Source of the DNA: a virus
Direction: 5' to 3' (one strand)
IMG/VR virus record: IMGVR_UViG_3300031726_000034
Coordinates: 1 to 30,066 of that record
DNA length: 30,066 nucleotides
This document shows positions 6,622 to 26,700 of this stretch, piece by piece. Position numbers and translations under genes: made by a program. The notes beneath the pieces were generated by a model, which saw nothing but the letters and a program-made list of their open reading frames with translations, searched no databases and was not told the DNA's origin. Within the stretch, counting starts at the first letter, position 1, and the number at the start of each line of letters is the position of its first letter.

Positions 6622-6624
6622 GGC

Positions 6625-7391
6625 TCACCTCCTCGCTGACTTCGCCAGCCGCACGAGGTCGGCTGTTGAGCCCCGGGGCTTGTCCGGTTGTGAGTGGGCG
6701 TTCAGCACGGCGACCACCTGCCCCGGGCTCAGACGCCAGAACTCGTCAGGATCACGTCCGACGACGATCCATGCTCGGAACCAGTCATGCCATGGGTAGC
6801 GTCGGATGCGGGCGGCGAGTCGTCGGTCGGGATGGGCTCCGAAAGCGATGTCGGCGAGACGTCCTCCGTTGTCTCGTCCTTGGTCGTTGCCGCCTTCAAC
6901 GCCTCCGCCAGCCGGGCCTGTTTCGCCTTGTTCGACGTCACCATCTCGCCCTCCGACTGGCGGATTGCTTCCCCCACCAGAGCCGGGTCCATCCCGTTGG
7001 CCAGCATGTACGCGGCCCCGATCAGGGTCCCGACCTCCTCAGTGGCATCAGGGCAGATCGCCCCGACAACCCGCAGGTCGTCCTTGCTGGACGGGTCGAA
7101 CCCCCAGCAGATGGCCAAGGTCGCGCGGACCGTGCTGAACGGCGCGGCAACGAGGGCCTCCTCCCAGTTGTCGACACTGCCCCAGCCGATGACGGGGTCC
7201 TCGATGTCGGACAGGATGTTGTTGTCGAACCGCACGTACCGTTTGGCGGGGTCCATGATGAACTCGCCTGCGTCGTCGATCGCACGCTCATTTGTCGGCC
7301 TGCCGTCGGCGTCGCGGACTACGGTGTGCACCGTCATGGGCACACCACGGTTCTTGAGGACGGCAGGGCTTACGGACCCTGCGGTGCTCAT
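6625..7391 (-). CDS. Tail assembly chaperone, long form by predicted -1 frameshift (about 255 aa)
   Basis: The reading frame one base back from the chaperone gene is open through its 3' half and past its stop, ending TGA at 6625-6627, four bases before the tape measure ATG. Its last 80 residues read as real protein, with RRYPWHDWFRAWIVVGRDP and EFWRLSPGQVVAVLNAH. This matches the usual C-terminal extension of siphovirus chaperones (a W followed by Pe-FW-L---Q) and fills what would otherwise be a 107-base gap. The most plausible slip site is GGGGGAA at 6969-6975, where GTG-GGG-GAA is in frame. A slip there gives 141 residues in the first frame plus 114 in the second. The heptamer is not a perfect X-XXY-YYZ site, so the position is less certain than the extension itself. 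The product is expected to be a minor chaperone that loads the tape measure. Confidence 0.75.
6729..7391 (-). CDS. Tail assembly chaperone, short form, 220 aa
   Basis: The protein begins MSTAGSVSPAVLKNRGVPM. The ATG overlaps the tail tube stop in an ATGA at 7388-7391. The central part (EALVAAPFSTVRATLAICWG, VGTLIGAAYMLANGMDPALV) is helical and resembles the N-terminal domain of gpG-type chaperones. The C-terminal 60 residues are acidic and low in complexity, which is typical where a second frame is used. The position between the tail tube and the tape measure is diagnostic. The abundant short form and rarer frameshifted long form normally act together on the tape measure before the tube polymerises. 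Confidence 0.88.
   Translation of the reverse strand: MSTAGSVSPAVLKNRGVPMTVHTVVRDADGRPTNERAIDDAGEFIMDPAKRYVRFDNNILSDIEDPVIGWGSVDNWEEALVAAPFSTVRATLAICWGFDPSSKDDLRVVGAICPDATEEVGTLIGAAYMLANGMDPALVGEAIRQSEGEMVTSNKAKQARLAEALKAATTKDETTEDVSPTSLSEPIPTDDSPPASDATHGMTGSEHGSSSDVILTSSGV
6969..6975 (-). other. Candidate -1 ribosomal slip site
   Basis: On the minus strand this reads GGGGGAA, phased G GGG GAA in the chaperone frame (codons 139-141). The P-site tRNA can re-pair perfectly after a one-base backward slip; the A-site pairing is imperfect. Immediately after it the -1 frame is Gly-rich and free of stops until 6625. I found no better heptamer between here and the first-frame stop. Confidence 0.5.
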
Positions 7392-7942
7392 GCGGGCAGC
7401 GGAGTCTTGGCCGCGTAGAAGTCGACGTCGAACAGGGCGTCGTTGCTCTCGCACGCGATGCCCTCGATCTCCATGTCCGGCTGGCCGAACTCGTCGGTCT
7501 TGGAGGTGATGAGGGTGCCGCCGGAAATCTGCGCCTTCCAGACGGTCATCTGAAGGGACCCGAGGCCCATCTCCACATCGTCGATGGTGAACATCGCCTT
7601 GAAGTACGGCAGGCTGTTCGTGCCAAGGACCCGGAACTTCGCCGACACGGTGGTCTGGTCGGTCAGGTCGCCCTCCATGATGACGTCCAGCACGTCAAGG
7701 CTCAGTTTGCCGTAGGTGCACTTCATGGTGACCTTGTCGACGCGGCCCTTTTTGGCGATGATCTTCGCGTCGCCCTTCAGTTCGGCGGTCTGAAGGTTGG
7801 GGTCCATCGACACCTCGGCGATGCCGGGCACATCCACGGCTGGGCCGTACGTCGGCCCTGAGGCGCCGGTGGTGTCGGTGAGCATCGAGTAGACCTTGAA
7901 GTCGTGAACGTCGAAATACACACTGCGATGGGTGACGGGCAT
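7388..7942 (-). CDS. Major tail (tube) protein, 184 aa
   Basis: The protein starts MPVTHRSVYFDVHDFKVYSM with a strong AAGGAGG 6 bases upstream, fitting a highly expressed product. It is nearly all beta, with VPGIAEVSMDPNLQTAELKGD then LDVLDVIMEGD and a late LGSLQMTVWKAQISGG strand pair, the pattern of tail tube subunits (Ig-like tube fold without an added Ig domain). It is preceded by the tail terminator and followed by the chaperones, the canonical order. The 111-base leader before it is the longest gap in the tail cluster and may hold transcript-level control. Confidence 0.9.
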   Translation of the reverse strand: MPVTHRSVYFDVHDFKVYSMLTDTTGASGPTYGPAVDVPGIAEVSMDPNLQTAELKGDAKIIAKKGRVDKVTMKCTYGKLSLDVLDVIMEGDLTDQTTVSAKFRVLGTNSLPYFKAMFTIDDVEMGLGSLQMTVWKAQISGGTLITSKTDEFGQPDMEIEGIACESNDALFDVDFYAAKTPLPA

Positions 7943-8994: not shown

Positions 8995-9002
8995 GGGTCC
9001 TC

Positions 9003-9410
9003 CTAGTCGGGGTAGGGAGCGGGGTAGTCCGAGCGGGTCAGCATCAGGCGCACGTGGGACAGGTTCGGGTTGACGAGTTTGATGATGAACGTGTGCTGCA
9101 ACCACGGCGGGATACTCGCGTCGGTGGTGCAGTCCAGCCAGTCACTTGCCTGCATCGCGGTCGACAGGGGCGCCAGCGCCACCGCGTCAAGGACGATGCC
9201 CCGGGCGGCGGCCCGGTCGATCTCGGCAGGCTGGGCGTCGGCGACGTAGCCCACGAACGTGACCGACGCCGCGCTGGACGGCTCCCGGTGCCACTGGCCC
9301 TCGGCGTCCTCCACAACGGTCATGGATGCCCCGGTCATCCGCAGCCCGACCATGTTGTGGACCCACAAGAACTCCGGCTCGGGGATGGGGAAGACCTCGT
9401 TGCCGCTCAC
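9003..9410 (-). CDS. Head-tail stopper-like connector, 135 aa
   Basis: The gene starts with GTG at 9410, overlapping the adaptor stop by four bases (GTGA). The protein opens VSGNEVFPIPEPEFLWVHN and is largely beta, with MTGASMTVVEDAEGQWH, SVTFVGYVADAQ and a helix IDRAAARGIVLDAVAL, ending HVRLMLTRSDYPAPYPD. A small beta-barrel protein between the adaptor and the gp10-like gene is normally the head closure (stopper) protein. The assignment relies on order and size; motifs are weak. Confidence 0.7.
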   Translation of the reverse strand: MSGNEVFPIPEPEFLWVHNMVGLRMTGASMTVVEDAEGQWHREPSSAASVTFVGYVADAQPAEIDRAAARGIVLDAVALAPLSTAMQASDWLDCTTDASIPPWLQHTFIIKLVNPNLSHVRLMLTRSDYPAPYPD

Positions 9411-9982
9411 AGGACTACCGGGACTCGCAGCCGGGCGAGGGTGCCGAGATCCCCGACGGTCAGGCGGCCCTTGTTGCCGGGGGCGTCCGGGGTGGCGTAG
9501 GTGATCGAGGTGCCCTCCACCGAGTAGGACTTGAGCGCACCGGTGGCGACCTGACCGGGCAGGGCCAGTGTGCGGGCCACGACGTTGGCGATCAGGTCGG
9601 TGGCGGCCCCGGCCCACGCCACCTCGGGGTAGTCGTCGCCTGCGGTGTAGTCGACCCACACGGTGGTCCCCGCCGGGAAGGCTCCGGGCTCCTCCCAGAC
9701 CCCGTCCTCGTCGAACGCCACCGACGCGGCGGACGCCGAGCCGTAGTGCAGGGCGTCGATCCACGCGACGGGCTCGTGGTACAGCACGATCCGGCCCTGA
9801 GTCCCGGTCCGGTGCTTCTCGGCGTAGACCCGCCGCTGGAACAGCCACCGGTTCAGGTGCAGTTCCAGCGTGGCCACCACCGCATCGGACAGGGCGTCGA
9901 CACGGTCCAACTCTGCGGTGCTCAGGGGCCGTTTCAGAATCCCGATGACCGCACGCGGGTCGCTCAGCAAAGGGTTCGCCAC
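9407..9982 (-). CDS. Head-tail adaptor (gp6/gp15-like connector), 191 aa
   Basis: The GTG at 9982 gives MANPLLSDPRAVIGILKRPL, followed by an N-terminal helical bundle (AELDRVDALSDAVVATLELHLNRW split by a turn) and then RIVLYHEPVAWIDALHYG and a beta insertion. A late helix, YPEVAWAGAATDLIANVVA, closes it. This helix-strand-helix plan is typical of the adaptor that docks under the portal. It is the first of four consecutive neck genes. Remarkably it is separated from the capsid gene by about 11 kb of other genes. Confidence 0.82.
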   Translation of the reverse strand: MANPLLSDPRAVIGILKRPLSTAELDRVDALSDAVVATLELHLNRWLFQRRVYAEKHRTGTQGRIVLYHEPVAWIDALHYGSASAASVAFDEDGVWEEPGAFPAGTTVWVDYTAGDDYPEVAWAGAATDLIANVVARTLALPGQVATGALKSYSVEGTSITYATPDAPGNKGRLTVGDLGTLARLRVPVVL

Positions 9983-10032
9983 AGGCTCAGCGTAGGGGCG
10001 TGGCCGCTACCGGGACCGCAGGCACGCCGCGC

Positions 10033-10305
10033 CTAGTTGACGGTGAAGTACCCGCAGTCCACGACCGGTTCGATGTCACCAACGAGGCCGGTGACCTTGG
10101 CCCAGATCCGCCACACTCCCGGGCTCAGCCCGTCCACGAGCACACCCATGCTGCCGTCCTCAAGAATCAGCGGGTCATCCCAGACGGTGGGGCGGGTGTG
10201 GTAGTCGGTCATGGCGATCTTGACCCCGACGGTGACCGGGGTGGTGCCGTCAAGGACCACGACCTGCTGAGGCTCGTTGGTCTCGCGGGGGTAGTCGTTG
10301 ACCAT
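10033..10305 (-). CDS. Small beta-sandwich virion protein, 90 aa
   Basis: The protein begins MVNDYPRETNEPQQVVVLDG; the ATG overlaps the stop of the repeat protein by one base (TGATG). The sequence alternates hydrophobic strands (TPVTVGVKIAMTDYH, SMGVLVDGLSPGVWRIWAKV, VVDCGYFTVN) and looks like a single Ig-like or baseplate-upper-protein-like beta domain. It follows the long repeat protein and probably works with it on the virion. No specific function can be assigned. Confidence 0.6.
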   Translation of the reverse strand: MVNDYPRETNEPQQVVVLDGTTPVTVGVKIAMTDYHTRPTVWDDPLILEDGSMGVLVDGLSPGVWRIWAKVTGLVGDIEPVVDCGYFTVN

Positions 10306-13145
10306 CAGGTTCCCTTCCCGGTGCCGACCCGCTCCGGCGGCAACGCGCCGGTCCAGCCGCGCTGGCCGAGCGCACCAACAGTGCTGCGTGCTCTCAGGTT
10401 AGTCCCGGTCCAGCGCCGTACCGGTAGCGAACCGCTCATGTCGACATCCGGTGGTGGCCGGTGCCCGATCACGGCCAGCAGCCCGCCGCCGGACAGGTCG
10501 GCGCTGCCCCCGATGGACACGGCGGCGGCCTCTAGGGTCAGGGACCCGTCCCCGGACAGGACCAGCGGTTGGCTCGCGGCGATGATCGCGGTCAGGGTCA
10601 GGGACCCGTCCCCGGACAGTCCTGCCGCCGATCTGGTGCGGGGGGTGCCGCTGGCGCTCAGGGACCCGGCCCCGGTCAGGGTGGTGGTCCCGTAGGCGTC
10701 GATGTGCTCGACGGCGACGCCGGTGGCTCCCAGTGCGCCGGACCCGCCCAAAGTGGCGGTCCCACGGTGGCCGGGAGCGCCGCCGATCCCGAGGGTGCCC
10801 GCCCCGCTCAGCGACGCGGCACCGCTGGTGGTCAAGGACCGTGTGGTGCTCAGGGCGCCGGACCCGCCCAGTGTCGCCGCCGCAGCCACGGCAGGGACCC
10901 CGGAGGTGCTCAGGGTCCCCAAGCCGGTAAGGGTCGCGCCGGACCCGAGTCCCGCCGCGCCTGTTGCGCTCAGTGCACCGGAACCGTTCAGGGCCACGGC
11001 GACGGCGATGGTGGGGGCGCTGCCGGTCACGGTCAGGGTGCCCGCCCCGGACAAGGGCACGTTGGTGGACTGGCCCCCGACCACGATCAGGGCGCCGGAC
11101 CCGGACAGGGAGGCCGTCCCGGTGACGGTGAGGGCGCTACCAACCGGCCCGAGGGTGCCCGCCCCGGCCAGCGCCGCCGACGCAGCAGGTTTGGGGGTGC
11201 CGGTCGCCGACAGGGCGCCCGCCCCGGCCAGCGCGACCGAGCCCAGCAGCCCGGGTGCCCCTGCGCCACTGAGGGTGCCAGCACCGTTCAGGGCCGCCGC
11301 GCCGCCCTTGGGCCATGGCAGGCCCGTCAAGGTCAGCGCGCCAGACCCGCTCAAGGTGGCAGTGGTGTGGATCTCTGGTTCCTGCTCGCCGATGGCCAGC
11401 GTGCCGCCGCCGCTCAGGGTGGCCGCGCCGGAGTAGCCGAGGACCCCGGCGGCGGACAGGGTTCCGGTGCCGCTCAGCGTGGGAGCGCCGCTGATCGCGG
11501 GTCCACCCGCGAAGGCAAGGGTGCCCGCCCCGGACAAGGCGGCAGTCCTGAGGTAGCCCGGGACGCCGCTGACCCCCAGAGCACCAGCCCCGGACAGGGA
11601 CGCGACGGCGGTAATGGCGGGAGTTCCGCTGACCCCGAGGGCGCCGGAACCGGACAGGGCGAGCGTCCCGGTGTAGCCCGGCATCCCGGCCAGCCCGAGG
11701 GTCCCCGACCCGGTCAAGGCTGCCGTGCCCGTGTAGCCCGGCATCCCGGTCAGGCTCAGGGTCCCCGACCCGGTCAAGGGGGCCGTGCCGGGGATGGCCG
11801 GGGCTCCACTGACGCTCAGAGCACCGGCCCCGGACAGGGTGTCCGCGCCGCCGGGTGCTGGCACCCCGGTGGTGTTGAGCGCCCCCGCACCGCTCAGGCT
11901 CACCGTCGCGGTGATCGCCGGGTTGCCCACGGAGGCGCTCTGGGTGGACGTTGAGCCGTTGGCGGCTCCGGTCCATGCGTAGGTCAGGGCCGGGGCTGCG
12001 GCTGTTGAGCCGTCGAAGTAGGCACCCACTGTGCCCGACCATTCGACCAAAACCGAGTCGATCTCCACGTAGTCGCCGATGCTGCCGGATGCGGCCACGT
12101 CCACATCCACCCGCAGGGTGGTGTTGCCTGCCGGGACGGTCCCCGAGTAGGTGACCCGCTGGTAGGAGCCGGTGATCGCCGTGGAGCCGCCAAGGATCTC
12201 ACCGGACACGTCCCACAAGGCCCGCATGGCGACGCTACGTCCGGTGGTGCCTCGCACGTACGCCGAGATGGAGAACGGCTGGCCGACGCTGACCGCGAAG
12301 GTCTGGCCGGTCAGGATGAACCTTCCGGTCGTGGTCGCGGTCAGCCGTGCGCAGCGGTCACCGGCCCACCCGGCGCCACCGCTGGGGTTGGTCACGGTGG
12401 GACTGCCGCCGGAGCCCCACACGCTCCACCCGGCGGTGTCTGTCTCAAAACTTGGGTTGGTGCACTGGTTCGTGCGGGTCACCACGGCGTTGAACGACAG
12501 GGCGCCACCGCCGCTGAGCGTGCATGTCCCGGTGATCGCGGGGGCGCCGACCGCCATCCGGGGCGCCACCGAGTAGGTCCGCAGTTGGGAGAACTCGGGG
12601 TAACTGCCAGCGCCGAGGGTGAAGGTCCCGGCGGGGGCGATCGCCGGGTAGTACATGTCGACCCCGGCGCCGACGTCGTTGGGGATGCCCCGCCCGAAGA
12701 CGGCGAACACGTCCCCGGCGCTGACGGTGACTCCGGCAGGCCACGTCACCACGTTGCTGCCCCCTGCGCTGAGCAGCGGCGGAACGGTCAGCGTCCCGCT
12801 GTCCCACGCCACGGTGTACTGGTTCAGGGTGCCGGTGGGGTGCAGAACGTAGGCGTTGAACGTGTAGCCCGCCGAGCCGCTCTGGTTCCACGTCTGGAAG
12901 TCGGCCAACACCCCGGCAGGCAGCGGGGTGTTCAGCAGCGCCACAAGAACCAGCGGGGAGGTGTCGGTTGCTGAGGCGCGATCGGCGGACACCGAGTTGC
13001 CGTAGGTCGCCGGGCCGAGCAACAGCGTGCCGCTGCCACTGAACGCACCCGCCCCGACAAGTGGGGTGTCAAGGGTGTAGATCCCTGAGCCGTCCTCCAA
13101 CAGGAGGCGGTCGGTGCCAGATTCCAGCAGGTAGCCGTCACTCAT
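10305..13145 (-). CDS. Long tandem-repeat virion surface protein with carbohydrate-binding-like module, 946 aa
   Basis: Residues 1-45 form a short N-terminal region (LLESGTDRLLLEDGSGIYTL). Residues about 45-200 look like a beta jelly-roll (LVLVALLNTPLPAG, SAGDVFAVFGRGIP). Residues about 226-375 resemble a CBM4/9-type galactose-binding fold: TNPSFETDTAGWSVWG, then FSISAYVRG and YVEIDSVLVEW. Residues about 416-902 contain about 24 units of 18-24 residues with consensus LSGxGxLxxxGxP plus about 7 variable residues. Single degenerate units also lie before the CBM (about 28-45 and 206-225), so the module is nested in the array. The array is unusually rich in Gly, Ala, Ser and Thr and probably folds as a beta-solenoid or extended fibre. 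The C-terminal 45 residues are basic. The gene lies between the capsid and neck genes, so it could be a capsid fibre or a tail fibre. Its Ser/Thr-rich repeats are possible acceptors for the glycosyltransferases encoded upstream. Confidence 0.8.
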   Translation of the reverse strand: MSDGYLLESGTDRLLLEDGSGIYTLDTPLVGAGAFSGSGTLLLGPATYGNSVSADRASATDTSPLVLVALLNTPLPAGVLADFQTWNQSGSAGYTFNAYVLHPTGTLNQYTVAWDSGTLTVPPLLSAGGSNVVTWPAGVTVSAGDVFAVFGRGIPNDVGAGVDMYYPAIAPAGTFTLGAGSYPEFSQLRTYSVAPRMAVGAPAITGTCTLSGGGALSFNAVVTRTNQCTNPSFETDTAGWSVWGSGGSPTVTNPSGGAGWAGDRCARLTATTTGRFILTGQTFAVSVGQPFSISAYVRGTTGRSVAMRALWDVSGEILGGSTAITGSYQRVTYSGTVPAGNTTLRVDVDVAASGSIGDYVEIDSVLVEWSGTVGAYFDGSTAAAPALTYAWTGAANGSTSTQSASVGNPAITATVSLSGAGALNTTGVPAPGGADTLSGAGALSVSGAPAIPGTAPLTGSGTLSLTGMPGYTGTAALTGSGTLGLAGMPGYTGTLALSGSGALGVSGTPAITAVASLSGAGALGVSGVPGYLRTAALSGAGTLAFAGGPAISGAPTLSGTGTLSAAGVLGYSGAATLSGGGTLAIGEQEPEIHTTATLSGSGALTLTGLPWPKGGAAALNGAGTLSGAGAPGLLGSVALAGAGALSATGTPKPAASAALAGAGTLGPVGSALTVTGTASLSGSGALIVVGGQSTNVPLSGAGTLTVTGSAPTIAVAVALNGSGALSATGAAGLGSGATLTGLGTLSTSGVPAVAAAATLGGSGALSTTRSLTTSGAASLSGAGTLGIGGAPGHRGTATLGGSGALGATGVAVEHIDAYGTTTLTGAGSLSASGTPRTRSAAGLSGDGSLTLTAIIAASQPLVLSGDGSLTLEAAAVSIGGSADLSGGGLLAVIGHRPPPDVDMSGSLPVRRWTGTNLRARSTVGALGQRGWTGALPPERVGTGKGT
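10440..11900 (-). repeat. About 24 tandem in-frame repeats of roughly 60 bp
   Basis: The period is mostly 60 bases, with some units of 54-72, and encodes the LSGxGxL unit of the 946-residue protein. On the plus strand each unit shows a conserved core resembling gccccggacagg or gacccggtcaag, with divergent sequence between. Copies differ enough at the DNA level to be readable individually, apart from close pairs such as around 11680-11790. Confidence 0.93.
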
Positions 13146-15084: not shown

Positions 15085-15441
15085 CTAACTCTGGGTGTAG
15101 GTGTAGGTGACGGTGAACGTGCCTTGGCTGGCGAACGCCTGCGAGGTGATAGATGCGGAGTCGCGCACGTCAGCGGTGGTCTTGGTGCCGCCGACACAGA
15201 CCCCGGCGTAGGTGACCGTGGTGCCCGCACCGACGTCGAACACGGGGGCTCCGGTGATCGCCGAGGCCGACGCGGCGCCCCACGACATGGCCTTGCGCTG
15301 GTAGACCGGGGAGCCGCCCGCCACCTCGTTGGTGGCCGCGTCGGCGGTGCCGGGGTCGCCGGTGAACAGCGCACCGTAGGGGGCAGCCGCACCGTAGGCG
15401 GTCGCCATCGCATTTCTCTGGGTCAGGTTACGGATCGCCAC
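15085..15441 (-). CDS. Small virion protein, paralogue of a minor tail protein, 118 aa
   Basis: It starts with GTG at 15441, 10 bases after AAGGAG and three bases after the previous stop. The protein runs MAIRNLTQRNAMATAYGAAA, then GALFTGDPGTADAATNEVAG, GGSPVYQRKAMSW and FDVGAGTTVTYAGVCVGG. The GGSP-Y-RKA core and F-D-x-x-AGT element match the minor tail protein at 1324-1722. The family is common in actinobacterial phages as small fibre-associated domains. A structural role is likely; whether it sits on head or tail is unknown. Confidence 0.7.
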   Translation of the reverse strand: MAIRNLTQRNAMATAYGAAAPYGALFTGDPGTADAATNEVAGGSPVYQRKAMSWGAASASAITGAPVFDVGAGTTVTYAGVCVGGTKTTADVRDSASITSQAFASQGTFTVTYTYTQS

Positions 15442-15696: not shown

Positions 15697-17499
15697 TCAT
15701 GTCGCACGGGCCAAGACGACGGGGGCGTTGGCCACCACGCTGTTCGCCCCGGCGTTGGCGGGCAGCGCCCCCGGGCTCAGCCCGGTTTGGAGCACGCCGT
15801 TGTAGAGGTTCGCGCTGAACCCTGCACCCGCGTTCCACTGGACCGGGCGCAGCCGCCCGGAGTGGGCACGGACCGTCGGGTGTGAGGTGGGCGCACCCTC
15901 GGTCTTGAACGCCAGCCATGACGCGCCCGCCGGGAGCGTCGCGGTGATCGGCTGCTGGTAGAACCCGGCAGCCTGAGTGCCGTCGATGGGGGAGGTGGTC
16001 TCGGCGATCAGGGCGCCGGGTTGGCCGCCGTTGTCCGCGTAGACCCCGAGGCGGATCACCGACCCGGCTGATCCGGCAATCGTGATCTCCATGCCGAGTT
16101 GGTCGATGGCGGTGTCGGTGTCCACGATGATCGGCGAGTAGACAATTCTCCCATCCGTCTGAGCCACTACCTGCACCCCGGCAGAGCCGGGAGGCAGGTA
16201 GTAGGACCCGCCCCGGGTCCGTACCGGGGTGGTGTAGCCCACGTTGACGCGGGCCACCACGCTCAGGCCCGCCTTGAACGTGTTGCCCCGGTAGGTCCAC
16301 CCGGCGCTGTTGGCGGTGTGCGCGTTGGTGAACACGTTGTCCATGACGCGGGTGGTCCCTGAGGCCCACGTGCTGATGGTGTCGCAGGTCGACCCGAACC
16401 GGTTGCCGGACACGAACAGGTCTACTGCTGCGCTCTTGGCCGGGAAGTCGGTGTCGTACAGGTAGACCTTCGCGTCGAACGTGTTGTCGATGATGCGGAC
16501 GTCGTTGAACGTCGACGAGCCGGTGTTCTCGGTGCGGCTCTGGAAGACGAACCCTTTTTTGGAGGGGGAGATGGCGTCGATGGTGGTGTTGCCTTGGACA
16601 AGGATGTGGGACATGTCCGTGGCGTTGGTGTAGGGCTCACGGCGCAAGGTGATGGCCCCGTAGCCTTTGCTGGCTGAGGCGCACACCAGATGGTTGAACA
16701 GGACGTCGATGTAGGAGGCGCCCTCGGTGACGTTGACACCGGTCCCGTTGTAGTGAACCTCGTTCTTGTCGATGGTGATGTGCCGGGCGAAGTTGATGAC
16801 CTGCGGGCCGTCCTCACAGCCGGTGATGTAGTTGTTGCTGATCCACCCGCCGTTGACCTCCTGATACTCGATGGCCTTGTTCGCCGTGGTGGTGATGGTG
16901 CAGTGCTCCACCCGCCAGTTGGTGTGCTGGGCGGCGAGGCGGTCGGTGTTGGCGGCGGCGGTGCCGGTGTTCTTCACGGCCCCGACCGCGATGTTGGTGT
17001 CGTTGATGACGCAGCCTGTCACGGTGATGTTGTCGCTGTGCGCCAGCGGTGTGCCGTCCTGCCGGGACTGGATGCCTTGGACGTAGGCGCCGACCGGCAG
17101 GCCCACCACGGAGTGGTTGGCGTCGATGCGTAGGTCCTCGATCGTGACGTTGCTGACCCCGGTGTTCGCGTCTCCGAGGTCGATGACGTGCACGATCCGG
17201 CCTGCGTCCAGAACCAGTGACGGGTCGAGCACGAGGCGGGTGAAGTTCTTGACCCCGCGCAGCCGCACGTTGGAGGCGAGTTTGAGGCAATACCTGCTGG
17301 CGCCCGGGGAGACCTTGAACGTGTGGGGTGAGAGCAGCACGTCGACCCCGTTGCCGCCTGCTGCGCCGACTGCGGTGTCGATGACCCGCTGGATGGCTGC
17401 GGTGTCGTCGACGGTGCCGCCCCCGACCACCCCGCCGACGCCGGGGCTGATGGTGGTCACTGAGATCCCTGAGGCGCTCTGGCCGCTGATCCGGCTCAT
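15697..17499 (-). CDS. Right-handed beta-helix spike/fibre protein, 600 aa
   Basis: The ATG at 17499 (MSRISGQSASGISVTT) overlaps the previous stop in an ATGA. Residues about 28-60 carry the pectate-lyase-3/tailspike opening VGGGTVDDTAAIQRVID. Residues about 75-410 contain repeated beta-helix rungs, for example NVTIEDLRIDANHS, NITVTGCVINDTNI, HITIDKNEVHYNGTGVNV and VRIIDNTFDAK, each with the Asn-rich turns of PbH1 repeats. Residues about 430-600 form a separate beta-sandwich with IRLGVYADNGGQPGALIAE, a frequent C-terminal domain of phage appendages. The fold suits binding or cleaving polysaccharide, but I cannot identify a catalytic set. Its gene is translationally coupled to the glycosyltransferase cassette and lies in the head region, so it may decorate the capsid rather than the tail. 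Confidence 0.82.
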   Translation of the reverse strand: MSRISGQSASGISVTTISPGVGGVVGGGTVDDTAAIQRVIDTAVGAAGGNGVDVLLSPHTFKVSPGASRYCLKLASNVRLRGVKNFTRLVLDPSLVLDAGRIVHVIDLGDANTGVSNVTIEDLRIDANHSVVGLPVGAYVQGIQSRQDGTPLAHSDNITVTGCVINDTNIAVGAVKNTGTAAANTDRLAAQHTNWRVEHCTITTTANKAIEYQEVNGGWISNNYITGCEDGPQVINFARHITIDKNEVHYNGTGVNVTEGASYIDVLFNHLVCASASKGYGAITLRREPYTNATDMSHILVQGNTTIDAISPSKKGFVFQSRTENTGSSTFNDVRIIDNTFDAKVYLYDTDFPAKSAAVDLFVSGNRFGSTCDTISTWASGTTRVMDNVFTNAHTANSAGWTYRGNTFKAGLSVVARVNVGYTTPVRTRGGSYYLPPGSAGVQVVAQTDGRIVYSPIIVDTDTAIDQLGMEITIAGSAGSVIRLGVYADNGGQPGALIAETTSPIDGTQAAGFYQQPITATLPAGASWLAFKTEGAPTSHPTVRAHSGRLRPVQWNAGAGFSANLYNGVLQTGLSPGALPANAGANSVVANAPVVLARAT

Positions 17500-18200
17500 G
17501 GTGACTGCACCATTTCGATGGTGACCGTTCCGGCGCTGGCAGGGGTGACGGTGGCGGTCATCAGGGGAACGAACCCCAGCCGGGCGGCGAAGGTGACGGT
17601 GTACGGTCCGCCTTTGGGGCCGGTGACCTGCACGTCGTGGGTCCCTATCGGGCTCCCCATAAGACTCCACCGGTGCGACCCGGCCAGACTCCACCGGTGC
17701 GAGCCCCTGATGTCTCCGGGCTGCCAGTTTCCTGCCATGGTGCCGACGAGGGCCTGCTGAATGACGACGGGGTCGGGTCTCTTGTTGGACGCGGCGGCGA
17801 CCGTGATCGGCTCGGTGCTCCAATCACCGATGGACAGCGTGAACGTCGCCCCCCACGGGGTGTCGCTGAGGGTGATGGTCTGGATGACGGGAATGAGTTT
17901 GCTCAGCCCGGAGATCAGGACGTTGACGTCTTGGGTGTTCAGGGCGGTGACCGCATAGACGATGTCCTCAGTCTCCACCGGCAAGGGGGAGTCCCCGGTG
18001 TTCAGGTCGAGGAACAGGCTCTCCCCTGCGGCGACGGGCCAGCCGGTGGCCGTGGTGACATCAGGACCGCCGAGGTACACCGTCGCGCCTCCGGGCGGGA
18101 CTTTCACCGCCAAGGTGGCGCCCGGGATGGCGTCCGGTTCAGGCTCGTGGAGTATGGTCGCGCTGACCCCGACGGTGACCACGCTCGCTCGCAGGCTCAT
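17496..18200 (-). CDS. Beta-rich virion structural protein with 8-aa internal repeat, 234 aa
   Basis: The ATG overlaps the GT4 stop by four bases. Residues 1-90 form a small beta domain with VKVPPGGATVYLGGPDVTTA and TGWPVAAGESLFLDL, a pattern common in phage structural and decoration proteins. Residues about 100-170 form a second domain (IQTITLSDTPWGATFTLSIG, then a helix DPVVIQQALVGTM). Residues about 170-195 hold two copies of GSHRWSLA/M followed by GSPIG, an insertion before the last strands. It is co-translated with glycosyltransferases before it and the beta-helix protein after it. It may be the base or adaptor of that appendage. Confidence 0.65.
   Translation of the reverse strand: MSLRASVVTVGVSATILHEPEPDAIPGATLAVKVPPGGATVYLGGPDVTTATGWPVAAGESLFLDLNTGDSPLPVETEDIVYAVTALNTQDVNVLISGLSKLIPVIQTITLSDTPWGATFTLSIGDWSTEPITVAAASNKRPDPVVIQQALVGTMAGNWQPGDIRGSHRWSLAGSHRWSLMGSPIGTHDVQVTGPKGGPYTVTFAARLGFVPLMTATVTPASAGTVTIEMVQSP
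17662..17709. repeat. 24-bp direct repeat, two copies
   Basis: The 17-base core agactccaccggtgcga occurs at 17662-17678 and again at 17686-17702, a 24-base period. Each copy contains the palindrome CACCGGTG. It encodes the GSHRWSL repeat in the 234-residue protein. Confidence 0.9.
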
Positions 18201-19354
18201 GGCGTCAGCCTAGAATCCGGGCACATGTGATGCGAGGCGCCACGCGGCGTTGACAGTGCGCGGCGGCGCAGGGCACGGGTGACCTCATCGGTGTAGGTGT
18301 TCTCCCAGTCCCGCCAGCGGACCCTGATGTCTTGGGCGCGGACCCGCAGGTAGGCGCGTTCGGCAGCCTGCTCGCGCCGGGCCGGGTCGACCAGTGAACG
18401 CAGGCCATCCATCCACCCGGCGGGGGTGCGTGCCAGCGGCCCGCCGCCGAACCATCGCTGCTCGGGTAGGTCGGCGGCCACGAACGGGATGCCCGCAGCC
18501 GCGTACTCCATGGCCTTGATCGCAGACTTGGCCCGGTTGAACGGATGGTCGGCCAGCGGCACGATCCCGATGTCGAACCCGGTCACGATGCCCGGGTAGT
18601 CGATCACCGGGACCAGTGGCATCGACGGGCCGCGCCGGTGGGCGGGGATGTGCAGGGCGTCGTAGGCGGACGTGTCGCCGGGGTGCAGGGCGCCGTGGTG
18701 CACGAACGTCCCATCGACCTCCTCAAGGAACCCGGGCAGGACCCCGGCGAGGGTCTCAAGGTCTCCCGAGCGCCACGGTGTGGCCCCGCACCAGCCCACG
18801 ACCAGTCCGCTGCTGACCGGGCGCACCGGGTAGTGGGCAAACGCGGGCAGGTCGATCATGTTCCGCAGGGTCCGCACCCGGGTCCCTTTGGCCCGGTAGT
18901 GCCCGGCCAGATACGGCGTGGAGCAGGTGGCCATGGTCGAGGCGGCGATGGCAGCGGCGTAGTGCTCCCGGTTGACGTCGGGGTGACGGGCCGGGTCGGT
19001 CGACTCATACGCCCGGTTGGTGGGGTGCAGCCGGTCAAAGTGGTCGTCGACGTCGTTGATGACGACCTGCCCGAAGGTGCGCGCCTCGGCGATGTGCGCC
19101 GGGGCAAGGTGGTGCATCCATCGTTGCAGCACCACCACCTGCGTCGGCTCTAGGGTCAGCGGGCGGTTCTGATCGTCGATCGGGATGAGTGCCCCGTCGC
19201 GGCGCCCGGCGACCCCCACCCCGACGTAGACCTCGTGGCCGCCGTACTGGTCCAGTGCCCCGGCGGGCTGGTGGACCCGTGCCCACCCGGAGCCGCCGGG
19301 CGCTGGGCCACGGTCGGTCTGGTAGTGGTCGGCGCTGATGAACGCGATCCTCAC
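18197..19354 (-). CDS. GT4-type glycosyltransferase, 385 aa
   Basis: I chose GTG at 19354 as start: it overlaps the previous stop as GTGA and follows GGGAGG by 7 bases. An in-frame ATG lies 15 bases further upstream. The N-terminal Rossmann half begins VRIAFISADHYQ with the Gly-rich GPAPGGSGWARVHQPAGAL. It continues QVVVLQRWMHHL and VVINDVDDHFDRL, an Asp-rich element also seen in other phage glycosyltransferases. The C-terminal half has SGLVVGWCGATPWRSGDL and then FNRAKSAIKAMEYAAAGIPF, the GT4 donor-binding helix with the conserved Glu. It should transfer a sugar from a nucleotide donor onto an unknown acceptor in the host cytoplasm. The acceptor is probably a virion protein, since the next two genes are structural and coupled by 4-base overlaps. 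Confidence 0.85.
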   Translation of the reverse strand: MRIAFISADHYQTDRGPAPGGSGWARVHQPAGALDQYGGHEVYVGVGVAGRRDGALIPIDDQNRPLTLEPTQVVVLQRWMHHLAPAHIAEARTFGQVVINDVDDHFDRLHPTNRAYESTDPARHPDVNREHYAAAIAASTMATCSTPYLAGHYRAKGTRVRTLRNMIDLPAFAHYPVRPVSSGLVVGWCGATPWRSGDLETLAGVLPGFLEEVDGTFVHHGALHPGDTSAYDALHIPAHRRGPSMPLVPVIDYPGIVTGFDIGIVPLADHPFNRAKSAIKAMEYAAAGIPFVAADLPEQRWFGGGPLARTPAGWMDGLRSLVDPARREQAAERAYLRVRAQDIRVRWRDWENTYTDEVTRALRRRALSTPRGASHHMCPDSRLTP

Positions 19355-19956
19355 CCGAACGCCTCCCATCCGGGCCACCCGGGGGTCCAGTCGAACACCT
19401 TGGGCTCGCGGGGGCCGCGCCCGATCCACGCCTCCGCCTCGTGCCTGTTGTCGTGGCGCAGCGGCGGCAGGGTCCGCAGGTACTCGTTGGTCGCCCACCA
19501 GAAGTTGCCCCCGAAGTACGGGGTGTCGACCCGGAACTGGGCGCCGGGGGTCAGCCAGTGGCAGCCCACCGCGTCCATGCCGCCCTCCATCTCGGCCACG
19601 CACGCCCGCCAGTTCCGCATCAGGACCGACATGGACCGGCGCCACGCGTCGTTGAACGCGCTCGGCGCAGCGGCGCCCTTGGTGTGGGTGTAGAGCGTCG
19701 CCCCGTCGAACTGTTCCAGTTCGGCGGCCAGCACCTCCAATGTGACCTGCTCCCAGCCCTCCGATGCTTGGGCGCACACCGCGAACTTCACGCCCGTTCC
19801 GTGCAGGAAGTCGATGACCGGGTCAGGGTTAGGCCCGACGATCCCGACCCGCAGTTCGGCGCCGAACCCGCTCTCACGCATCGCAGCCAGATGCTCACTC
19901 AGCGGCACGTACCACGAGCCTGCCGCGTAGACGTGGTGGTAGTTGCGGACCTTCAT
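19351..19956 (-). CDS. Putative glycosyltransferase-like protein, 201 aa
   Basis: The ATG at 19956 overlaps the methyltransferase stop (ATGA). The sequence has a Rossmann-like start, KVRNYHHVYAAGSW, then ATLYTHTKGAAAPSAFNDAW and RRSMSVLMRNWRACV. A distinctive PYFGGNFWWATNEYLRTLPP segment follows, then RHEAEAWIGRG. The HTKG---N--WR block resembles rhamnan-synthesis F-like glycosyltransferases, and the GGNFWWA block recurs in phage and capsule glycosyltransferases. I assign the class from these patterns and from the neighbouring GT4 and methyltransferase genes. The exact reaction is unknown. Confidence 0.65.
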   Translation of the reverse strand: MKVRNYHHVYAAGSWYVPLSEHLAAMRESGFGAELRVGIVGPNPDPVIDFLHGTGVKFAVCAQASEGWEQVTLEVLAAELEQFDGATLYTHTKGAAAPSAFNDAWRRSMSVLMRNWRACVAEMEGGMDAVGCHWLTPGAQFRVDTPYFGGNFWWATNEYLRTLPPLRHDNRHEAEAWIGRGPREPKVFDWTPGWPGWEAFG

Positions 19957-20546
19957 GGCCCGGCTTTCCTGATGAAGCACAGGTTGTGCCGGAACTCGAT
20001 GACCTCGATGTCCTTCTCCAACTGGGTCAGGGGGCTGCCCCGGAACTCGGGCCAGTTCACCCCGTCGCACAGATCCTTGAGGTACTCCATGGTCGGGGTC
20101 GGGCTGCCCATCTGCCACTCGGGCCAGTAGGAGGTTTGCAGGTCCTCGATGACGTAGGTCCCGCCGGGGTTCAGGTGGGCGAACAGGGTTTCCAGCGAGC
20201 AGATGATGTGGGCGGGCACGTGGGAGCCGTCGTCGACGATCAGGTCGAACGGGCCGTGTGTTGTGGCGACGTGGCGCAGGAACTTCGCGTCCGCCTGCGA
20301 GCCGCGCAGGACGCTGATCCGGGGCTGGTCGGCTTCCAGCCGGGGGGCGATGTCGATGCCGAAGATGTCGGCGCGCGGGAAGTAGTCCCGCCACATCAGC
20401 AGCGAGGCGCCGTCAAGGACGCCGATCTCAAGGACCTTGCCGATGGAGTCCGCCGCCGCGCCGAGGTGCTCCTCGTAGGCGCCGGTGTACTCGTGCGGGA
20501 CGGCTTTGTCGGTGCCGTACTTGATCGCCAGATCACGCAGGGTCAT
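19953..20546 (-). CDS. Class I SAM-dependent methyltransferase, TylF/MycE-like, 197 aa
   Basis: The protein begins MTLRDLAIKYGTDKAVPHEY, where KYGTDK is the N-terminal hallmark of macrocin-type O-methyltransferases that act on sugars. The SAM-binding motif is VLEIGVLDGASLLMWRDYF with GIDIAPRL as the acidic second strand. Further motifs are DLIVDDGSHVP and a late GGTYVIEDLQTSYW. At 197 residues it is near the family size. Family members methylate hydroxyl groups on deoxysugars, so with two glycosyltransferases downstream it probably methylates the transferred sugar. There is no visible ribosome site; a 6-bp hairpin instead abuts the ATG. Confidence 0.83.
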   Translation of the reverse strand: MTLRDLAIKYGTDKAVPHEYTGAYEEHLGAAADSIGKVLEIGVLDGASLLMWRDYFPRADIFGIDIAPRLEADQPRISVLRGSQADAKFLRHVATTHGPFDLIVDDGSHVPAHIICSLETLFAHLNPGGTYVIEDLQTSYWPEWQMGSPTPTMEYLKDLCDGVNWPEFRGSPLTQLEKDIEVIEFRHNLCFIRKAGP

Positions 20547-20591: not shown

Positions 20592-20747
20592 TCAGCGGTG
20601 CCAAGCCGGGCCGCGTGCGACCACGATCAGCACGACCCCGACCAGCGCCACGATGATCGCCGGGGTGGTGGCCAGCGAGATGACCGACAGGAGCCCGAGG
20701 ATGCCGACCACGATCAGGACGACACCGAGGACGAACAGGATGCTCAT
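20592..20747 (-). CDS. Small membrane protein with two spans, 51 aa
   Basis: Reading the minus strand from the ATG at 20747 gives MSILFVLGVVLIVVGILGLL, a Ser/Thr/Pro turn, then IIVALVGVVLIVVARG and WHR before TGA. The two hydrophobic stretches (about residues 3-25 and 30-44) should span the membrane as a hairpin. The start is one base after the stop of the 127-residue gene, so the two are co-translated. Size and topology would suit a holin-like or membrane-anchor role, but no lysis genes are near, and the function is unknown. Confidence 0.65.
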   Translation of the reverse strand: MSILFVLGVVLIVVGILGLLSVISLATTPAIIVALVGVVLIVVARGPAWHR

Positions 20748-20748
20748 G

Positions 20749-21132
20749 TCACTGCTCGTAGTAGTCGCGGCGCTCTTGCATCCACCCGGGGGCCACGATC
20801 AGCCCCACCGGGGCTACGAGCACGCTCGCGCGGGCGCCCCCGGGGGCTGGGACGTCAAAGGTGACCTCATGGGTGAACCTGATCCGCCCGTCCGGCAGGC
20901 TCTCGTAGGTGCCCGCAAACGGGTCAGCCTTGTCGTCGGTCACCGCAGGCTGGGCGGACTTGTCCTCGGTCCGCTGCCGTCGTGCGCTCATCTCATCCTC
21001 CGTGGGGGTGTGTGTGCAGTCTCCGGTGCCGCACACCGGGCAGACGGGCATTGACCGGCCCAACTCCTGCAACGCGACCCGGGCGTAGTGCTCCGGGTAC
21101 ATCGCCACAAGTTCGGCCCCGATGATGTCCAC
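20749..21132 (-). CDS. Hypothetical protein with Cys/His cluster, 127 aa
   Basis: It starts with GTG at 21132 after GTGGAGC. The N-terminal helix (GAELVAMYPEHYARVALQEL) is followed by CPVCGTGDCTH, a CxxC...C..H arrangement able to bind zinc. A charged region comes next, then a beta segment (GRIRFTHEVTFDVPAPGG, SVLVAPVGLIVAPG). I do not recognise the family. It is the first gene after the capsid hairpins and is coupled to the small membrane protein. Confidence 0.6.
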   Translation of the reverse strand: MDIIGAELVAMYPEHYARVALQELGRSMPVCPVCGTGDCTHTPTEDEMSARRQRTEDKSAQPAVTDDKADPFAGTYESLPDGRIRFTHEVTFDVPAPGGARASVLVAPVGLIVAPGWMQERRDYYEQ

Positions 21133-21235: not shown

Positions 21236-22582
21236 CTAACCGAGGTCAACCTTGACGAACGACTCAGGCCGCTTGACCGCGAGCGCGAGACGCTCCTCAG
21301 CGAGGATCACCACAGCGTTGCGGACAAAGAAGTCCTCGTGCTGTTCGGCGATCCTGATGTTGGCCTCCTGACGGTCGTACAACTGGGCGCCAAGCCCAAA
21401 GGCACCCACCAATGCGGTGCCCTCGGTCATCGCCGGGGAGTCGACCACCGGGACCGACCACAGACGCGACTCCGCACCGATGGTGACGTTCGCCGTCACG
21501 GTGTAGTGCCCGTCCTCGCCCTTGCCGGTCTCGATGTCCTCCCAGTCTGAGGGGTGGACCACGATGCCGGTGGCGTCGTAGTACGCGAGGATGACCTTGG
21601 TCAGGGCACGCCGGATGGTGTCCTGCTTCTGGTCGGTGACCGGCCCGGACGTGTGGCTGTACGTCTGGATGCCGGGGGTGTTCAGGACGCCGAGCAGGTC
21701 CTCGGAGGTCCCGGTGCCGTAGAGGATCTGGTGGTCCTCGGTCAGCCGCAGCCCGTAGAGCAGTTCGTTGTTGATCGTGCTCTGAAGTTGCGGCTCGTCG
21801 GCGAGCACGTTGCGGTGCGCGGCCTCCCAGTGCGCGATGGTCCGCACCGGCGCCTGAGCGGTCTCAAACTTCAGGCTGGAATGAGGCTTGAGCCCGAACG
21901 CACCGGCCTTGTAGTCCGGCACGACACTGGCGCTGGACGACAGGTCGAGACGGTTGGTGCCGAACCCGAGGACCCGGAAAAAGTCGATCAGGTTGCTTGA
22001 GGTGGCAGCCACCGGGAACAGGTCCCGCACCCGTGCGCGACGGAAGTTGCGGGGCACCATGGGGTCCAACTGCCGCCCGCCGAATCCCTCGGGGATAGTG
22101 CTGAACGTGGAGCCGGACATCCCGCCGTACACGTCCTTGGTGGACGTCTTGGTGATGTCCTGACCGTGGATCTCCCACGCCTTGGACATCGTGCCGCCGC
22201 CGGAGGCGCGCAGCGACTTGAACTCCTCGGACTCGGTGAACCGGGACCCGAGGTCCTTGCGGGCCTCGGCGAGGACGGCGGCGTCCTCGGCGCGCTGGGC
22301 GCCTGCGGCGGCGCGCACAGCGGCGGACTTGGCCTCAGGCTCGCCCATGAAGTCGACCATGGACGTGCCGAGACGCAAGTCGTCGAGGAGGGTTTTCTTC
22401 TCCCGGGCCGAGGCAAGGTTGGCCCGGAAGTCCTTGGCGGCGTCTTCGGGGACGTAGACGTTCTTGCCCTCGATCTTGAACTGGGACTGGGCGATGCGCT
22501 CGTTCTCGTCGAGCAGCGCCTTGATTTCTTCCTCAAGGGTTTTCGCGGCACCGCTGAGGGCGGTGTCTTCGGTGACAGACAT
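21236..22582 (-). CDS. Major capsid protein, HK97 fold, 448 aa
   Basis: The start is fixed by AAGGAAA 6 bases before the ATG (MSVTEDTALSGAAKTLEEEI). Residues 1 to about 130 are a helical, charged delta/scaffold domain (FRANLASAREKKTLLDDLRL) that the upstream protease should remove. The mature part has the HK97 layout: IPEGFGGRQLDPMVPRNFRR, VRTIAHWEAAHRNVLADEPQ, a long helix LQSTINNELLYGLRLTEDHQ, ILYGTGTSEDLLGVLNTPGI in the A-domain, and WEDIETG. It ends with RIAEQHEDFFVRNAVVILAE and the final strand ALAVKRPESFVKV. It lies immediately after the protease, separated by a 150-base leader with a strong hairpin, which is consistent with separate control for high output. I cannot tell whether chemical crosslinks form. 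Confidence 0.95.
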   Translation of the reverse strand: MSVTEDTALSGAAKTLEEEIKALLDENERIAQSQFKIEGKNVYVPEDAAKDFRANLASAREKKTLLDDLRLGTSMVDFMGEPEAKSAAVRAAAGAQRAEDAAVLAEARKDLGSRFTESEEFKSLRASGGGTMSKAWEIHGQDITKTSTKDVYGGMSGSTFSTIPEGFGGRQLDPMVPRNFRRARVRDLFPVAATSSNLIDFFRVLGFGTNRLDLSSSASVVPDYKAGAFGLKPHSSLKFETAQAPVRTIAHWEAAHRNVLADEPQLQSTINNELLYGLRLTEDHQILYGTGTSEDLLGVLNTPGIQTYSHTSGPVTDQKQDTIRRALTKVILAYYDATGIVVHPSDWEDIETGKGEDGHYTVTANVTIGAESRLWSVPVVDSPAMTEGTALVGAFGLGAQLYDRQEANIRIAEQHEDFFVRNAVVILAEERLALAVKRPESFVKVDLG

Positions 22583-23797: not shown

Positions 23798-26700
23798 TCA
23801 CTCCTTCGCGGCGGGCGGCGCCGGTGGTGGTGTCGGTGCGGGTGGGGTCTGTTCCGGGGGAGTGGGTGGCTCGGCGCCGGGGACGGGACTACTCCCGTCG
23901 CCGTCAGGTGCGGGAGCCCCGTCAGTCTGTGGTGGCGGCTCGGGGGATGCCTCCACGAGGGGGAAGTCGAGCACCTCGTTGCCGATGGCAAGGGACAGGA
24001 AGTCGAACGACAGGTCCCGGTCGGCGACCTTGGGCAGGTCGCCACCCTCCTTGTCGTAGGCCAGCGTGATGTGCGGGGTGAACCCGTGAACCTGCGAGAC
24101 CGCGAACCCGTCACCGTTCAGGGCGTCGGCGACCTTCTGCCGGGCGGCGTTCAGGCCGGGAGCGTCGACGTTGGCGTAGACCGGGTCGCCCTCGGCGGGG
24201 TCGCCGTTGAACTTGCCGACCCCGTTGATGGTGCCGTCGATCGGGCCGATCCCGGCGGCGGTCGCCGACACGAGGTTGGACAGGTCGTCAAGGTCGGCTG
24301 GCTCGTAGTCGCTGATCTTGCCGAGGTAGGCGAGTGTGACGTGCAGGTCGGAGTCAGGTAGCCCGCCGGGGACCTTCAGGGCCTTGGCGCTGTCCTCGTC
24401 GGGGTACAGGGCGACCATGATGGAGTCGGAGAAGTCGGGGTCGTCAGGGCCGGGATCGTCAGGGCCATCCGGCTCGGCGCCGGGCTGGTCGGTGGTCTCG
24501 GTGGGCTGGGTGTCGGCCTTGTGCTTGCCCCGCCCCGGGCCTTCCATGCCGGGTGCGACCCCGAGGGCCTCCCGGTGGTAGACGTTGCACAGCCCCTCCG
24601 CGCGCACGCCCACGTACGGGCGCAGTTCGCGCACGCACCTGTCAAAGTCGTGGGGCACACCCCACTTGATCTTGGCGGCGCCCTCACCGTGGACCCAGTA
24701 TTCGCGCAGCCGGGTCGCGCCCGGGTTGGCCGATGGGCGGGACGGTCCGGGGGCCGCCCGGTCGGCTTTGCCCTCGGGCACCCCGGCGCCGGTCGAGGTG
24801 TCCGGCACCGGCATCGTGGTGTGGAAGATGCGGGACTGCTCCATCGGCGGGTTGTCCACCCAGATCGCGCCGTCCAGCAGCGGGGCCACCGCCTCAAAGT
24901 TCAGGCCGGAGCGGGACTGGTACTTGTGCCCGGTCATCGGGCTGATGGACTGTTCGGCTTGGCTGACACCTTGGGAGGTGGAGACCCGGCTCGGCACGTA
25001 CCGGCCCGCGAACGGCCCGCCGATGGTCTCCGGCGGTGCCATGTGGCGCCCCGCCGCGTTGATGATCGACTGCCTCAGGCTCCCGTCGACGAACAGGCCG
25101 CGCACCTGCTCGTAGCCTGCGTCACGCAGGTGGGTGACTTTCCTGCTCTCGTTCTGGACGTCCTTGTCGGCGAACGTCCCGTCAAGGATCACGTTGACGC
25201 CCTCGTCGTAGAGCCGGTCCCGCAGCAGGTTCTTGAGGTGACGCGACTCGCCGTGCAGCAGCGAGGCCGCTTCCAGCGGGCCGATGCCGTACTGGGAGGC
25301 GTACTCGCTGGGCTGCAACCCGGCGCGGATGATCTCCTCTTTCATGTCGTCGGGGTTCAACGTGGCGAAGTTCTTTCCGGCGCCGTCGATCCCGATGCTG
25401 CCGCCCTGCTGTTTCAGCACGGTGGTCTTGCCCGACCCGGAGGGGCCAGCCAAGATCAGCGCCCGCCGGTCCCGGGGGACGTCGGCGTAGCCCGCCATGA
25501 TGGAGTCGATGAGCCGTTTGTGCGTCTGGGCACGCTCGGTGGACCACAGTTCCGTCTGATCGCCGTCGGCGCTGGCTGGCAGCGGGTTCCTGTCATGGAT
25601 CGTGGTGGTGTCCCCGAGCCCGGCGGCGGCCTCTTTGAGGCGGGACTCCAACTGCTCGCAGTATTTGTCGTAGGCCGGGTCGGAGCGGGGGTGCCATGAG
25701 GGCCAGCGTGAGCCCCACGGCTGACCGTCTGGGCCGTTGCCCGGGACCGGAGCCCCGAAGTCGATCCCGCCGGGCTTGGCGACCTTGAGCATGGCCTTGC
25801 GGATCTTGGCCTCTTGGGCGTAGTCCCCGGACTTGGCTGCTGCCGCCCACACGTCCCGGGCCTTGGCGTAGTTCTCCGGCTGGGACAGGTCCACGGACGG
25901 GTCGAGGGGGTCAAAGTTGGTGGGGGTGGTGACCATCCGCCCGGCAAGGTTCTGCTGGTCGGAGAGCATCTCCTCGGTCGCGTCGGCTGCGGTGGCGATG
26001 TCGCCCTGTACGGTGCCCGGCTGTTTGGCCAGCGCCGCGTCCGGCGCCGCTGCGTCGTAGGCGTCAGAGTAGGTGCCCGGCCACGCCATCTGGCGGTCAC
26101 GCTTGGGCCTTCCCGCAAGGGCGTCCGTTCTGCCCGCAGCCTGCGCCTCGTCCATCGACCAGTTCATTTGCTCGTCGATGCGCGCCTTTTCGGCTTGGCG
26201 TGCGGGAGTCTGGGCGCGCTCATGGGCCGTCGGGGGCGCCTTAGGCTTGGGTGCTTCCGGCTTGGGGCCACCCTTGGGCGGGATCGGCTCCTGTGCGATG
26301 TCCGCGCCGGTGATCCCTACCGACTTGATCCCGACCGCAGTGGTGAACGCCTTGGTGTAGTCGAGGGCCTCACCGATGTCCATGTCGAGGACCCGGACCG
26401 GTATCGACAGGTCCCCGAGGTGCCCGTCGGCGGCGTCGATGTTCACGAGCATCGCCCACCGGTGGTGGCCGTCGACGATGTACCCGTCGCGGGTCACCGT
26501 GATGGTGCCCTCAGGGATGTTGCCTGCCTCCATCGCCCGGGTCATCCCGGCGACCTGCGAGCCCTTCAACTCGCCTTGGGAAGCGCGCAGGTGGGAGGCG
26601 AGCACGTCCTTGTTCTCCACGCCGATCCCGAGTTCCTCAAGGGCCTTGAGGAACTCGGGCATCATGTCGACCTCGCCCCGGGCGTCGGGGGTCTTCTGGG

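Follow-up and report, generated by a model that had tools for sequence, protein, structure and literature searches.

A sugar O-methyltransferase relative and two glycosyltransferase-fold proteins behind a phage capsid gene: a candidate virion-glycosylation cassette

What would a phage decorate with three sugar enzymes encoded in the middle of its structural genes? The question is raised by IMG/VR virus record IMGVR_UViG_3300031726_000034, positions 1 to 30,066 of which (the window, that is, the whole 30,066-base stretch that was analysed) carry an operon of late structural genes on the minus strand. Behind the gene for the HK97-type major capsid protein (MCP) lie genes for a methyltransferase relative (MT) and two putative glycosyltransferases (GT1 and GT2), chained to two further genes, S1 and S2. 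The best explanation, which we hold to be rather probable, is that MT, GT1 and GT2 form a cassette that dresses the virion with an O-methylated glycan; the activities, the sugar, the order of the reactions, the acceptor and the benefit are given below as we infer them. The genes concerned are as follows.

21236..22582, minus strand: MCP, HK97-type major capsid protein (PF05065, E 3e-38; phrog_10)
19953..20546, minus strand: MT, relative of class I S-adenosylmethionine (SAM)-dependent sugar O-methyltransferases, catalytic domain only, 197 amino acids (PF13578, E 8.6e-7; phrog_21658, E 1.2e-32)
19351..19956, minus strand: GT1, GT-A-fold nucleotide-sugar transferase-like protein, 201 amino acids (AlphaFold pLDDT 82.8; Foldseek, VIA-align)
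18197..19354, minus strand: GT2, GT-B-fold glycosyltransferase, 385 amino acids (phrog_7162, E 4.5e-23; AlphaFold pLDDT 90.3)
17496..18200, minus strand: S1, orphan, beta-rich protein, 234 amino acids (phrog_30212, E 9e-4; weak match to 'Tail tip cage, gp23', 9d93, E 2.8e-4)
15697..17499, minus strand: S2, right-handed beta-helix, spike-like protein, 600 amino acids (PF13229, E 5.5e-6; phrog_7458 tail spike; phrog_21562 tail protein)

Three putative sugar enzymes

The first-pass annotation had called MT a methyltransferase, which is borne out and can be sharpened to a sugar O-methyltransferase relative. Among solved structures, MT comes closest to the deoxysugar O-methyltransferases MycE (3SSM, E 5.1e-36) and TylE (demethylmacrocin O-methyltransferase; 8IA9, E 6.5e-34), with homology to MycE covering MT residues 3-194 of 197. 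In the MycE family Asp275 and Asp304 bind metal and His278 is an active-site residue (PMC9275233); MT D106, H109 and D135 align with MycE D275, H278 and D304, and all three are conserved in nine diverse phage sequences. The N-terminal auxiliary domain of MycE is absent from MT and so is the Tyr208 loop, and MT is therefore filed as a relative of MycE rather than a member of its family. Because of the family to which MT is related, an O-methylated sugar is the best-supported class of predicted product. A match of MT to mad2 (padloc, E 1e-6) was attributed to the shared SAM-methyltransferase fold and set aside.

The two glycosyltransferases of the first-pass annotation hold by fold (GT-A and GT-B), with no curated family behind GT1, which has no match in Pfam, PHROG or NCBIfam. 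Since PDB sequence profiles of GT1 and GT2 gave nothing useful, their folds were taken from AlphaFold models. The best structural match of GT1 is mannosylglycerate synthase (2y4l; VIA-align Z 13.0, rmsd 3.3 over 175 residues), and further fold matches by Foldseek and VIA-align include GtrB, dolichyl-phosphate mannose synthase and WrtF. The top Foldseek matches of GT2 are MshA, GlgM, PglA and PimA (E 3e-14 to 2e-11 for MshA, PimA and PglA, TM about 0.6 for most). Its match to a Pfam glycosyltransferase family falls below the cut-off and its E-X7-E motif lacks the first Glu, so membership of GT4 is not claimed. A scan of genome contigs with GT1 gave no match, and the same scan with GT2 gave only four, all distant and partial. 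Among viral loci, GT1 adjoins a methyltransferase in 51 of 83, mostly from one freshwater phage clade. In one freshwater phage clade (L009-L088) GT1 is widespread directly after a terminase-like gene, and a methyltransferase often follows within a few bases.

A recurrent place behind the capsid gene

A profile search with GT2 relatives gave 80 viral loci, and adjacency to the capsid gene was counted in those 38 records in which a PF05065 MCP is present as well; the count is limited to these records and leaves out other capsid families and fragments without a capsid gene. The GT2 relative lies on the MCP strand in 33 of them, and in 27 it is on the same strand and 0.2-5 kb downstream of the HK97 MCP, against a mean of 4.2 and a maximum of 13 in 5000 trials of random placement (in the window, GT2 starts 1.9 kb downstream of MCP). 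Three further contigs, L116 (5.2 kb), L262 (7.2 kb) and L186 (11 kb), have it downstream on the same strand just past the 5 kb limit, and L250, scored at 38 kb upstream on a contig that probably wraps around, was not counted as adjacent. When the set is collapsed at 60% identity, GT2 is capsid-adjacent in 9 of 17 clusters. A PF13578 methyltransferase is present in 13 of 50 records, every one of them MCP-bearing.

The enzymes that accompany the GT2 relative vary. The interval between MCP and neck in L116 (MCP 52% and tail tube 53% identical to those of the window) holds an epimerase, a MUCI70-like glycosyltransferase, a methyltransferase, two GT-A proteins and a GT2 relative; Methyltransf_24, GT-A and GT2 are joined by an FAD oxidoreductase in L102, L103 and L246, and by an epimerase in L250, L255, L257 and L258. 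GT1 and GT2 relatives occur together in L235 and L242, and the order in L187 is simply MCP-GT2-neck-tube. A Methyltransf_24::GT-B fusion in one reading frame follows close on MCP in six contigs (L232-L234, L236-L238); one of these, L233, has a relative of the window's MT (41%) between MCP and the fusion. No cassette is found in L171 (MCP 50%, tube 46%), where about 690 bases separate MCP from the adaptor gene, and the Gordonia relative Chidiebere has a head-decoration protein at the cassette site (phrog_2647, E 7.5e-108). Because of these last two cases, the interval behind MCP looks like a site for capsid-dressing genes, whether these encode proteins or sugar enzymes.

A broader version of this idea is that the site behind an HK97 MCP is an exchangeable capsid-dressing slot across diverse phages, taking either decoration proteins or interchangeable sugar cassettes (a GT-B core with GT-A, epimerase and methyltransferase) that would coat the capsid with O-methylated glycans, as a bacterial-virus counterpart of the capsid glycans of chloroviruses. 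We put this forward tentatively, as a possibility that may well prove too broad; if it were true, capsid glycans could hide the capsid from capsid-sensing defences or set the surface properties of the particle.

The five minus-strand genes run from 20546 to 15697 in the order MT, GT1, GT2, S1, S2 with intact open reading frames (ORFs), and the four 4-base overlaps previously described as chaining them are exact at each junction, which were all read directly: ATGA for MT/GT1 (19956-19953), GTGA for GT1/GT2 (19354-19351), and ATGA for both GT2/S1 (18200-18197) and S1/S2 (17499-17496). Among about 20 late-operon junctions in the window, 4-base overlaps occur only at these four and at g8/g9b. Of the 74 same-strand junctions in three Gordonia relatives, 16 (22%, from the annotation) are 4-base overlaps, a rate at which a run of at least four in 20 junctions has P ~0.03. 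Prophage prophiFSIL01-1 is denser, and at its rate of about 42%, counted by eye, a run of this kind would be nothing out of the ordinary (P 0.29). Cassettes of relatives also hold 4-base overlaps by their ORF coordinates (L102, 7904-7907 and 8917-8920; L116, 13339-13342; L244, 6009-6012). The chain marks a compact block, across which translational coupling is plausible, and it names no substrate; because such overlaps are common in the lineage it is weak evidence of function, and at a base rate of 22% in relatives it was rejected as such.

S1 and S2 had been annotated as two appendage proteins forming a unit with the enzymes. For S2 the first part is upheld by its beta-helix and by a C-terminal domain common to tail, esterase and hydrolase proteins of Gordonia and Arthrobacter phages (in Gordonia phage Wojtek a protein sharing this domain sits between portal and MCP). 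S1 is an orphan whose match to a tail tip is weak, with no homologue in the phages or viral contigs searched, and it is probably a virion structural protein, judging from sequence. The notion of a conserved enzyme/beta-helix unit fails because no homologue of S1 or S2 was found at related cassettes among the viral loci fetched; GT2 relatives stand behind MCP in phages in which neither is detectable. What recurs is the place behind MCP, not the overlaps or the link to a beta-helix.

Proposed role and rival explanations

Late in infection, GT1 and GT2 would draw on nucleotide sugars supplied by the host, with deoxyhexoses such as rhamnose the most plausible, and add the sugars to a particle protein, to a growing glycan or to each other's product. 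MT would then methylate a ring hydroxyl of the deoxyhexose as a cap, in a metal-dependent reaction like that of MycE. The likeliest acceptors would be MCP and other late surface proteins of the operon (S1, S2 and the two candidates listed below), not the beta-helix protein alone, with MCP favoured because it is the shared neighbour. The particle surface would thereby be shielded or altered. A precedent exists in Mycobacterium phages, where glycans have been placed on the C-termini of capsid and tail-tube proteins (Freeman 2023, as cited in PMC12619734). The earlier proposal that the sugar enzymes modify virion proteins with an O-methylated sugar is thus retained in part: the MT family, the glycosyltransferase folds and the capsid-adjacent position in a late operon speak for it, and neither the overlaps nor the beta-helix pairing identifies the substrate.

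15085..15441, minus strand: g15, resembles head or fiber proteins, a candidate surface protein co-located downstream of S2 (phrog_240 head protein, E 1.1e-11; PF23140)
10305..13145, minus strand: g12, S/T/G/A-rich LSGSGxL (LSGSGxLxxxG) repeat protein, candidate acceptor (phrog_14138 minor tail protein; S+T 23.5%)

Several observations weigh against this reading. In GT1 the canonical DXD was not found after the strand at 86-91, and a conserved Y-x-H-T/S-K-G stands in its stead. A DXD is absent from some active GT-A enzymes, so GT1 may still be active. In GT2, E283 of the E-X7-E motif is present and position 275 is Ala, and in the alignment of MT to MycE a 7-residue loop that includes Tyr208 (chain Y228, native Y208) is deleted in MT; because GT1 has no DXD, MT no Tyr208 loop and GT2 no first Glu, enzyme activity is not certain. 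No gene for nucleotide-sugar synthesis was found in the window. An acceptor on the virion is a prediction from gene content and position. Adjacency to the capsid gene is not universal, since five related MCP contigs carry the GT2 relative 28-33 kb away on the opposite strand and two freshwater contigs have it 20-22 kb downstream of MCP, and the counts are not independent because the contigs are related to each other.

We regard it as unlikely that the cassette instead modifies, late in infection, a surface polysaccharide or teichoic-type polymer of the host and so restricts superinfection or the re-adsorption of progeny. Phage serotype conversion is well known, as cited in PMC12619734. GT2 has a weak NCBIfam match to the teichuronic acid protein TuaH, and the fold of GT1 resembles those of the surface-glycan enzymes GtrB and WrtF; however, MT, GT1 and GT2 all lack transmembrane segments, unlike lipid-linked surface-glycan glycosyltransferases, and no flippase or lipid-carrier glycosyltransferase lies alongside. 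Prophages that alter wall glycans usually do so through genes active during lysogeny. The enzymes discussed here occupy a late structural position, next to MCP in diverse phages. That the enzymes act specifically on the coupled S1 and beta-helix proteins would fit an overlap chain that runs straight into S1 and S2 and the abundance of Ser and Thr in both (19.7% in S1, 17.5% in S2); the 22% of overlapping junctions in relatives and the lack of S1 and S2 homologues at related cassettes, where the conserved neighbour is MCP, make this quite improbable in our judgement. S2 as the proven substrate was likewise rejected; the beta-helix link is not conserved.

Two other explanations carry far less weight. 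The genes could be a passenger metabolic set with no virion role, lodged at a permissive insertion site behind MCP, as their patchy presence and varying content between relatives might suggest, yet the same site and the same classes of activity recur in 9 of the 17 sequence clusters, and the MT::GT fusions and conserved catalytic residues indicate selection, so that we find this very improbable. Glycosylation of modified bases in the phage genome has a precedent in phage glycosyltransferases that hypermodify DNA (Pyle 2024, cited in PMC12619734), but MT is a relative of sugar, not base, methyltransferases, and no base hydroxymethylase of the thymidylate-synthase type is present in the window, itself a genome fragment, or in 14 related records. 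On these grounds DNA hypermodification was rejected as a likely role and is given almost no credence here. A Tet/JBP search also found nothing; its control was silent too, so this null is not evidence of absence.

Known systems and the surrounding operon

Glycosylation of phage virions is known, and what is notable here is the sugar O-methyltransferase and the recurrent position behind the capsid gene. One of the closest known parallels to the proposed virion glycosylation by the cassette is in Mycobacterium phages such as Che8, double-stranded DNA phages that encode their own glycosyltransferases and for which capsid and tail proteins are the proposed acceptors (Freeman 2023, as cited in PMC11256854 and PMC12619734). 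The window, whose host is probably also actinobacterial, likewise has phage-encoded glycosyltransferases (GT1, GT2) alongside structural genes like those of actinobacterial phages. In the related F1 phage Maravista the glycosyltransferases are encoded close to the 3' genome end (PMC11256854), whereas in the window they are directly behind MCP with a sugar O-methyltransferase relative, and tblastn with GT1 and GT2 gave no hit in a Mycobacterium phage at E 1e-3 and 1e-5. Arthrobacter phage Atuin gp165 belongs to the same GT-B family (phrog_7162) and is 30% identical to GT2, but is located away from the structural genes, in the vicinity of tRNAs and genes of DNA metabolism. Mycobacteroides prophage prophiFSIL01-1 has a glycosyltransferase and an MT relative (34%) overlapping in one operon (gp45-47), though upstream of the terminase rather than behind MCP, and no GT1 or GT2 homologue was detected there.

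Outside phages, the A064R protein of chlorovirus PBCV-1, which offers the closest case of this logic to have been worked out, combines a GT-A rhamnosyltransferase, a second rhamnosyltransferase and a 2-O-methyltransferase, and builds the methylated tip of the capsid glycan (PMC9614988). The likeness, two glycosyltransferases physically linked to an O-methyltransferase, is one of logic only, with no shown homology: in A064R, which belongs to a eukaryotic virus, the three domains form a single protein, whereas the window has three separate overlapping genes and a predicted acceptor. A single polypeptide of that type was not seen in the window, and its relatives have the two-domain MT::GT-B fusion. 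Compared with MycE and TylE, in turn, MT has catalytic-domain homology over its whole length and keeps the metal and His residues, and differs in its missing N-terminal domain and Tyr208 loop.

Few phages have been shown to glycosylate their virions, and sequence gives little guidance as to which phages do so and which of their proteins carries the sugar. An MT with two glycosyltransferases behind MCP, together with related enzymes at that place in diverse phages, could serve as a sequence marker for glycosylated virions, with the capsid as the first target, and would be a counterpart to the methylated capsid glycans that evolved independently in giant algal viruses. Its practical use would lie in understanding phage clearance and particle stability.

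The operon reads, on the minus strand, ADP-ribosyltransferase-like protein, 1560-amino-acid multidomain protein, prohead protease, MCP, cassette, several surface-type proteins, head-tail adaptor, neck proteins, tail tube, tape measure and minor tail proteins. A megablast of the window against phage records gave no match; the nearest MCPs are those of Gordonia and Brevibacterium phages (51-59% identity). These phages carry a tail sheath; in the window, the stretch from neck to tube showed no gene for one. Further features of this setting are given below.

20749..21132, minus strand: g17, small protein in the interval between MCP and cassette (no significant Pfam or PHROG family)
20592..20747, minus strand: strongly hydrophobic 51-amino-acid ORF directly upstream of MT (from sequence; KD19 3.08)
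9407..9982, minus strand: head-tail adaptor, downstream border of the interval between MCP and neck (phrog_2377, head-tail adaptor Ad1)
7388..7942, minus strand: major tail (tube) protein, lineage marker (phrog_4971; 53% identical to L116, 100% to L268)

A contig from a near-identical strain (98.6% over positions 1-10956 of the window, about 11 kb) ends short of the cassette. In the part that extends to the left of the window it carries a third glycosyltransferase (PF04488, with a DXD), preceded by a minor-tail gene and followed by an endolysin gene. If the strain of the window shares this gene, its tail genes probably include one or more further sugar enzymes. The g12 proteins of the two are only 49% identical, and nucleotide similarity ends inside the gene, making g12 a candidate hypervariable surface protein.

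Some smaller observations concern the neighbouring genes. The PF23140 GP4 fiber I (gp80) domain occurs in three minus-strand proteins, g15 behind S2 and two after the tape measure (1324-1953 and 1734-2210). In Chidiebere, gp38 and gp39 (L002, 15928-17292, plus strand), annotated as hypothetical, match head-decoration families, gp39 being the phrog_2647 match given above. In relative L186 a protein with TROVE (Ro60-like) and VWA domains is encoded between MCP and the sugar cassette (L350, 3784-5481, plus strand). Upstream of the head genes of the window, the product of 28494-30008 (minus strand) has weak similarity to DRAT-type ADP-ribosyltransferases (PF07357, below cut-off). Between this gene and the prohead protease, the 1560-amino-acid protein (23798-28480, minus strand) has a zeta-toxin/kinase-like domain (PF06414) and, at its C-terminus, a 2H phosphoesterase with weak similarity to the anti-CBASS protein Acb1; it would fit a polyvalent protein that is packed with the DNA or ejected with it.

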